In this document: positions 42,526 to 43,113 of the stretch, piece by piece
How the letters are laid out: each line of letters opens with the position of its first letter
How positions within the stretch are numbered: the first letter of the stretch is position 1
NCBI GenBank assembly: GCA_039973685.1
Contig: JBDWKL010000018.1
Coordinates: 1-64,000, forward strand
Direction: 5' to 3'
Length of the DNA: 64,000 nt
DNA from: Hyphomicrobiales bacterium
Lineage (GTDB): Bacteria; Pseudomonadota; Alphaproteobacteria; Rhizobiales; JACESI01
Position numbers and translations under genes: made by a program
The notes under the pieces: model-generated
Seen by the model: the letters and a program-made list of their open reading frames with translations, nothing else
The model's database searches: none
What the model was told of the DNA's origin: nothing

Positions 42526-42553
42526 TTGCCAATCTACAAAGAATCTCTACTCT
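42526..42553 (+). promoter_or_regulatory. Possible sigma-70 promoter for the short-ORF transcript
   Basis: TTGCCA, 16 bases, TACTCT. The -10 is imperfect. It is placed 24 bases before the extended Shine-Dalgarno of the 25-codon ORF. Confidence 0.35.
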
Positions 42554-42576
42554 CATGAATATCTGAAACAAACGAG

Positions 42577-42589
42577 AGGAGGTGATCCA
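42577..42589 (+). promoter_or_regulatory. Extended Shine-Dalgarno sequence
   Basis: AGGAGGTGATCCA is complementary to 13 consecutive bases at the 3' end of bacterial 16S rRNA (end GGATCACCTCCT). The AGGAGG core is seven bases from the ATG at 42590. Such a long match is far beyond what normal genes in this window have. Confidence 0.8.
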
Positions 42590-42667
42590 ATGTCAGTCAC
42601 GTATTTGAGGCACAATGTGCAAAGCCATATGGGTATGATGATGGAGCAGCCTTCATTATCTGCATGA
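42590..42667 (+). CDS. 25-codon ORF, candidate leader peptide
   Basis: The ORF follows an exceptionally strong ribosome-binding site and encodes 25 residues, beginning MSVTYLRHNV, with a Met-rich middle (HMGMMMEQ at about 13-20, three ATG codons in a row) and a TGA stop. It is followed by hairpins and an intrinsic terminator 79 bases later, a layout like an attenuation leader. It resembles no protein I know. It could be a leader peptide, a small functional protein or part of a dual-function RNA. Confidence 0.5.
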   Translation: MSVTYLRHNVQSHMGMMMEQPSLSA

Positions 42668-42777
42668 CTTTTGGGTCTGCATAGCCATTGGCACGGGCGA
42701 AAGCCCAAAGCGCATTGGGGCAACGTTCCACGCCTCTTGCGGACGGGGGTCACTTACAGGTGGCCCCTTTTCTTTTG
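42668..42777 (+). ncRNA. Structured 3' part of the short transcript
   Basis: After the ORF stop, CTTTTGGG (42668-42675) can pair with CCCAAAG (42704-42710). Alternatively GGGC-GAAA-GCCC (42695-42706) forms a GNRA-capped hairpin. The two are mutually exclusive, and an intrinsic terminator follows. This is the pattern of an attenuator or of a small RNA with a Rho-independent end; no named RNA family is recognised. Confidence 0.4.
42746..42777 (+). terminator. Intrinsic terminator of the short transcript
   Basis: GGGGTCAC (42746-42753) pairs with GTGGCCCC (42760-42767) through one G-U pair around TTACAG, followed by TTTTCTTTT. It is oriented to stop plus-strand transcription 84 bases before the 83-residue gene. 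Confidence 0.85.
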
Positions 42778-42861: not shown

Positions 42862-43113
42862 ATGACAGATACCACCGCGCTTAAATATAGCCTGACGCAC
42901 CCTATCGTTTGCGCCAAATGTTCAGAAGATGTGCTGCAAGGCCGCTCTAATGGCTTGTCGATGCGTGAATATGCAGCCGTTGATATAGGATTTACCAGCA
43001 TTGGCGTGCAGGTTTGGTGCAGACGCCATAACATCAACGTGGTGCATATTGATTTCCAAGGAAATCGACTACCCGCAGATTTCCGCTGTCTCGAAATGCC
43101 TGAGACGCAATAA
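42862..43113 (+). CDS. Hypothetical 83-residue protein with a possible zinc site
   Basis: I do not recognise a family. The protein contains CAKC at 17-20 and CRRH at 53-56, a CxxC plus CxxH arrangement that could hold one zinc ion, plus Cys76 and His62. The ATG is nine bases after AAGG. It lies downstream of the short-ORF/terminator element, so it may be controlled by read-through, and ends at the terminator shared with trxA. Confidence 0.65.
   Translation: MTDTTALKYSLTHPIVCAKCSEDVLQGRSNGLSMREYAAVDIGFTSIGVQVWCRRHNINVVHIDFQGNRLPADFRCLEMPETQ

Follow-up and report, generated by a model that had tools for sequence, protein, structure and literature searches.

A putative relative of the small RNA CC2171 that combines an extended Shine-Dalgarno sequence with a short reading frame apparently kept for its frame and length

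Why should an open reading frame (ORF) of 25 codons carry an unusually strong ribosome-binding site and lie in front of a transcription terminator? This arrangement is found in the window, the whole 64,000-nucleotide stretch of Hyphomicrobiales DNA analyzed here (contig JBDWKL010000018.1). A first-pass annotation took it for a translational attenuator or a dual-function small RNA in front of a small CxxC gene, and knew of no named element that matches.

We found that the main parts of the layout are as annotated; those of the element lie on the forward strand. AGGAGGTGATCC is present at 42577-42588 with zero mismatches and, because it is followed by an A (42589), the match to the 16S 3' tail covers 13 bases (AGGAGGTGATCCA, 42577-42589, directly before the ATG). 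The tail used here and in all Shine-Dalgarno (SD) pairing comparisons is what we take to be the alphaproteobacterial sequence. Pattern searches and SD:16S energies define an extended SD, the complement of this tail (GAGAGGAGGTGATCCA, 42574-42589). Upstream are an A-rich 5' tail (AACAAAC, 42567-42573) and a tentative, weak promoter (42526-42556; TTGCCA at 42526-42531, TCTCAT at 42551-42556, spacer 19) with a poor -10/-35 match. The ORF (MSVTYLRHNVQSHMGMMMEQPSLSA, 42590-42667) starts with ATG (42590-42592), ends after 25 codons with TGA (42665-42667), and has three consecutive in-frame ATG codons (codons 16-18). A strong intrinsic terminator, recognized in the sequence and by RNAalifold (42746-42776; stem 42746-42753/42760-42767, T-rich tail 42768-42776), precedes the CxxC ORF (83 aa, 42862-43113).

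The 208-nt stretch from 42570 to 42777 has a predicted folding energy of -84.9 kcal/mol (z -4.67), below all 200 dinucleotide shuffles. The predicted fold contains the terminator and two helices, P1 and P2. P1, also recovered in a duplex test, joins codons 2-8 to bases just 5' of the terminator. Its 5' strand (42596-42611) consists of GTC (42596-42598), CGTA (42600-42603), and GAGGC (42607-42611), and its 3' strand (42732-42744) of GCCTC (42732-42736), TGCG (42738-42741), and GAC (42742-42744). P2, for which there is also covariation in type-B members, is a hairpin near the ORF end (42637-42660; 42637-42646 with 42651-42660, loop CAGC). It holds GGAGCAGCCTTC, which resembles the 16S tail. Bases 42573-42581 (part of the SD) are predicted to pair with the T-rich 3' end. 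The hairpins had been described as mutually exclusive; this was only partly right, because P2 nests inside P1 and both are present in one fold. The pairing that would cross P1 is that of the SD with the ORF end.

We found that the element occurs in many Alphaproteobacteria but by no means in all of them. The pattern GGAGGTGATCCNRTGTC occurred once in the genome of the window. Of the 297 genomes of the order, 135 had the pattern and none had the reversed control; unrelated matches among the 135 were in genomes G238 and G006 and at loci L025, L047, and L119. With a longer pattern and three mismatches allowed, 146 of the 297 genomes had a match (G015 unrelated) and 151 had none. A strict pattern, AAGGAGGTGATCCNRTG, was found in 46 of 289 genomes of a class panel and not found in 243. 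In a phylum panel (n = 299), matches were present in 46 of 86 Alphaproteobacteria and in 1 of 213 others (G630, pattern match only). There is normally one copy per genome. Named records, among the matches listed, are Sphingomonas, Bosea, Ancylobacter, Methylobacterium, Roseomonas and relatives, Rhodobacteraceae, and Oricola; no match was found in G002, of the same genus as the window. A 3-mismatch search of 39 genomes without a match gave seven places: six read as members, and the seventh, L292, belongs to a long ORF. When 32 match-less genomes were searched with a 13-mer, there were five places in 3 genomes (pattern matches only). The remaining match-less lineages either lack the element or carry a more strongly diverged one.

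Family members were collected by requiring AGGAGGTGATCCN(A/G)TG. We kept 252 rows and dropped six: four near contig ends, and L139 and L191, with ORFs of 57 and 56 codons. The AGGAGGTGATCCN(A/G)TG columns are invariant by this choice of rows, because the search required the pattern. Columns outside the search pattern were also conserved (n = 252): G at -16 in 243 rows, and A at -15, -14, and -23 in 245, 246, and 241 rows, respectively. Codon 2 was TCN in 248/252 rows, CAACAA was the commonest form of the 5' tail, and a terminator was detected by script in 243/252. The best -10 ended 35-38 nt 5' of the start codon in 81 of 162 non-redundant members; the mean -10 score was barely higher than in shuffled sequence (7.32 vs. 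6.99). Wilcoxon and binomial values in this analysis count related rows or genera as independent.

The SD of the element is far stronger than that of ordinary ORFs. Pairing of the window SD with the assumed 16S tail was calculated at -30.0 kcal/mol. Among ORFs of at least 150 codons, each taken with its best start, the median was -8.7 and the best -14.5 kcal/mol in the window (47 ORFs), and the best in the named loci was -18.4 kcal/mol (672 ORFs). The 252 family rows, which were chosen by exact SD pattern, had a median of -29.9 and a weakest value of -25.2 kcal/mol. We also analyzed 37 genomes with a changed 15-base complement, judged against the same assumed tail. Between -15 and -2 there are 35 distinct genus-level changes, and 29 of them retain a G-U pair; pairing is retained by 29 of 31 transitions, when half would be expected. 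Four further genus-level changes, at -16, break pairing. In one family (f6; L048-L053 and L056) the base at position -16 of the complement is C, T, or A. At 18 places fetched alongside this analysis, all ORFs had 24-31 codons. These results argue that the SD is constrained to keep its pairing with the assumed 16S tail, and the element should bind the 30S subunit far more strongly than ordinary mRNA does. In modeled full-length RNA the SD was not clearly open; the paired fraction of the SD core was 0.665, compared to 0.737 in shuffled sequence.

We found that the frame of the ORF is kept and its peptide is not. For 156 of the 162 non-redundant members (156/164 at best if the dropped L139 and L191 are added), the own-frame stop lies within codons 18-31; the corresponding counts for frames +1 and +2 are 24 and 23. 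Stops before codon 18 were found in 1 member in the own frame and in 85 and 75 in the other frames. In L314 and L315 (1-601) one base is inserted right after the GTG, and the ORFs still end after 25 and 24 codons. The ratio dN/dS in 64 disjoint pairs was 0.96 from codon 6 to the end (shifted-frame controls, 0.79 and 0.94) and 0.91 from codon 2 to the end. Substitutions in these pairs were spread over the codon positions as 192/174/161, a flat pattern that may be partly structural, because codons 6-8 lie in P1. Compensated frameshifts were found in 204 pairs over 107 rows, many of them related and some with ambiguous gap placement. For example, L023 and L020, of one genus, are 76% identical ungapped and 84% gapped. 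L315 and L306, also of one genus, are 43% identical ungapped and 78% gapped; in both pairs the middles differ and the end frame is the same. Purifying selection on the peptide was not found, by either dN/dS or compensated frameshifts. The comparisons indicate selection on frame and length and none on the peptide. The selection on the ORF could have a cause other than the one proposed below.

Several results support selection on RNA structure in the family. For P1, real duplexes scored -15.07 and duplexes with swapped partners -11.05, the real one being better in 118 of 131 rows; in a fixed register it was better in 63 of 78. Both tests excluded rows in which the terminator was missing or lay too near the stop. 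The window itself scored 6 in the fixed register vs. a swapped mean of 7.03, because its P1 helix has another register. In the type-B alignment (42 rows), where P1 was tested as a named structure, all five pairs of P1 and all five pairs of P2 have two-sided changes. Of the P1/P2 cells, 91.4% were paired (slid controls, at most 57.5%), and on four of five measures 0/500 shuffles scored as high (1/500 on the fifth). The three rows of the window's genus had no pairing in the type-B columns; compensatory changes in P1 were seen across the family and not inside this genus. RNAalifold run on alignment A1 predicted P2 and the terminator and not P1. Near the end of the ORF, local hairpins outscored their shuffled counterparts in 58 of 82 M-start rows and in 66 of 93 V-start rows.

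The ORF end might also cover the SD. A motif like the 16S tail (GGA-N2-7-CCYYC) was found there in 67 of 162 members vs. 10.8 expected (phases 8/30/29). Predicted pairing between SD and ORF end was 0.450 vs. 0.302 shuffled in nascent RNA (higher in 96/162) and 0.139 vs. 0.106 in full-length RNA, judged by composition controls only, with a mononucleotide shuffle in the duplex test. Because the motif in type B is also the covarying hairpin P2, an anti-SD role for it is only possible, and covering of the SD by the ORF end is likewise put forward as a possibility.

We found no downstream gene common to 154 loci (stop-to-stop segments of at least 70 codons, crude ORF calling). The next ORF is on the opposite strand in 86 loci and on the same strand in 68. 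The largest downstream-gene cluster comprises 10 loci, and its four shown members are from Bosea or Methylobacterium. Conserved synteny was sought and rejected; there is none beyond close relatives. The reading as an attenuator of the CxxC gene is unsupported, because the element ends in a terminator of its own, the loci share no downstream gene, and 86/154 next ORFs are on the opposite strand. A local cis effect is possible, because the CxxC gene follows the element in all three members of the genus that have it (the window, L002, and L003). Its protein is 91% identical in L002 and L003. The 83-aa ORF had no Pfam match, and appears to be a conserved small protein of the genus with no function assigned by the Pfam search. 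In L002 and L003 the element is flanked by cobW and the CxxC gene, and no match to cfa was found in their 3-kb loci.

Conserved sensor codons of a cis attenuator were not found. Where the window has MGMMM, its two siblings have VNLMV and VVATM, and the window's ATGATGATG run lies in the 5' arm of P2. Sensing of methionine was rejected on these grounds.

Some loci have other features nearby. The Rfam 'ffh sRNA' (RF01793, 57.1 bits) lies at L040:639-690, ~670 nt from the element, and an FMN riboswitch (102.8 bits) at L057:756-910, close behind it. In L083, L085, L094, L105, L121, L142, and L145 the DNA behind the element resembles what we take to be the start of YaiI/DUF188 (DADxCPVK).

The element appears to be a divergent relative of a named RNA, the Rfam small RNA CC2171 (RF01867); the annotation had known of none. 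The window matched the model end to end with 27.1 bits (E 7.2e-4, 541-base search), below the gathering score of 75 bits. That score was passed by 5 of 20 sources, all with a VSHC ORF, and by none of L002-L011. The 5' block of CC2171, CAACAA-GAAAGGAGGUGAUCCA-RUGUC, is also present in the window, with GAGAGG in place of GAAAGG. The CC2171 consensus starts cAAcaAucGAAAGGAGGUGAUCCAGUGUC, and its CAUuGuC pairs with GaCaAUG before the terminator hairpin. A helix between the early ORF and the pre-terminator region is found in both, with other letters and another register. CC2171, from Caulobacter, is typed by Rfam as an sRNA gene; here the element bears an ORF. CC2171 is listed for M. huakuii (PMC5596092), where columns that appear to come from sequencing give 215 nt, and is named in a table of revised structures (PMC11701678). 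Neither ORF nor function is mentioned in the available portions of these two papers. For Caulobacter, a 2014 ribosome-profiling paper states that two RNAs predicted to be noncoding are translated (PMC4117421). A literature text search with sequence forms of the SD-start block matched only a wasp paper.

Based on these results we suggest, with about even confidence, that the element is a stand-alone, normally single-copy small RNA related to CC2171 whose state is set by ribosome loading. From its 5' tail, 16S complement, short ORF, and terminator, it looks like a separate transcript. A 5' tail of ~28 nt, a length inferred from the promoter position, would present an A-rich stretch and the whole complement of the 16S 3' tail. 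The 30S subunit would bind this tail, and a ribosome would translate ~25 codons and terminate. While on codons 2-8 it would keep P1 from pairing with the pre-terminator bases, and near the stop it would melt P2. If initiation failed, P1 and P2 would close, the 16S-like ORF end would cover the SD, or both. In the cell, we infer, translation would compete with P1. Start, frame, and stop would be kept because the passage of the ribosome and its stopping place matter, the peptide being irrelevant. Candidate outputs are the stability of the RNA, a partner RNA, or 30S occupancy itself. More tentatively, and less likely than not, the RNA might sense the supply of initiating ribosomes: whole-tail pairing would hold the 30S subunit, translation would be of fixed length and without meaning, and failed loading would switch the fold (P1, P2, and covering of the SD). 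In this way the RNA would report or buffer the capacity for translation.

Two other explanations are live rivals. The element could be an sRNA that acts in trans by base pairing, where translation serves only to shield the RNA, nascent or finished, from Rho or RNases and nothing is sensed. This would account for both the lower and the upper bound on ORF length without selection on the peptide, and P1, beside the terminator, could merely stabilize the RNA. However, it leaves unexplained a 16S complement far beyond that of ordinary ORFs and a helix beginning immediately after the start codon, and we consider it fairly unlikely. Alternatively, the SD-start tail, which P1 would close from codon 2 on, could be a decoy that traps 30S subunits without initiation and so lowers initiation or stores subunits. 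The pairing energies (-25.2 kcal/mol or lower in 252/252 rows, median -29.9, in rows chosen by exact SD pattern), the 29/31 SD transitions that retain pairing, and the start of P1 at codon 2 in many members are as a decoy would have them. But a decoy needs no ORF with its stop held at codons 18-31, and this reading is of low probability.

Both a Met-sensing cis attenuator and a functional peptide are unlikely. A leader attenuating the CxxC gene, possibly through the Met codons, would fit the terminator before that gene and the gene, 91% identical, that comes after the element in L002 and L003 as in the window. We give it little credence: the downstream gene is common only to close relatives, the Met run is lost in the siblings, and in L002 the match to the gene starts ~345 nt past the terminator, with a 97-codon open segment between. 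A small-protein gene with a working peptide, suggested by the strong SD and the narrow ORF length, is highly improbable. Peptides are alike in some groups (MSHGSAVGSVQFVRETRR in Sphingomonas) and dN/dS is well below 1 in a few small ones (VSY23, 0.32, and VSR18, 0.59; 2 pairs each), but overall it is ~1, it reaches 3.39 in the Sphingomonas-type group MSH18 (8 pairs), and frameshifts are compensated; a peptide gene was rejected on dN/dS and the frameshifts. What stands of the first-pass annotation, on comparative grounds, is a probable functional RNA with a frame-selected short ORF and switch-like pairing; attenuation of the CxxC gene is unsupported, and the functional peptide that a dual-function RNA would have is contradicted.

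An open frame held across many orders of one class, without peptide selection or a linked gene, is unusual, and offers a clear test of translation as a signal rather than for its product. A little-studied Rfam family becomes a defined architecture, and SD strength and ORF length alone are no proof of a small protein.

Related arrangements are known. In repY-repZ and similar plasmid leader ORFs, translation and its stopping place control RNA structure, as we propose here; those ORFs open a downstream gene, whereas the element has no conserved one. The rnTrpL/peTrpL system of S. meliloti, in the part of the report available, is likewise a small RNA of an alphaproteobacterium in which a short ORF is translated, but it originates from the trp attenuator, is leaderless, and has a peptide called functional (PMC10117765). 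The element, unlike it, has a very strong SD and neither a linked operon nor apparent selection on the peptide. For the S. meliloti duf1127-1 uORF, the accessible text states that the RNA and not the peptide matters and predicts pairing between the RBS and early codons, both as in the element; in contrast to the element, the uORF acts in cis on a downstream gene, probably through Rho, without an intrinsic terminator (PMC12218461). In S. aureus, according to the part of the source available, cryo-EM revealed an SD-anti-SD helix lengthened towards the start codon, as expected here; such extended SDs are estimated there at ~30% of initiation sites, whereas here the extended SD marks one element (PMC13009471).
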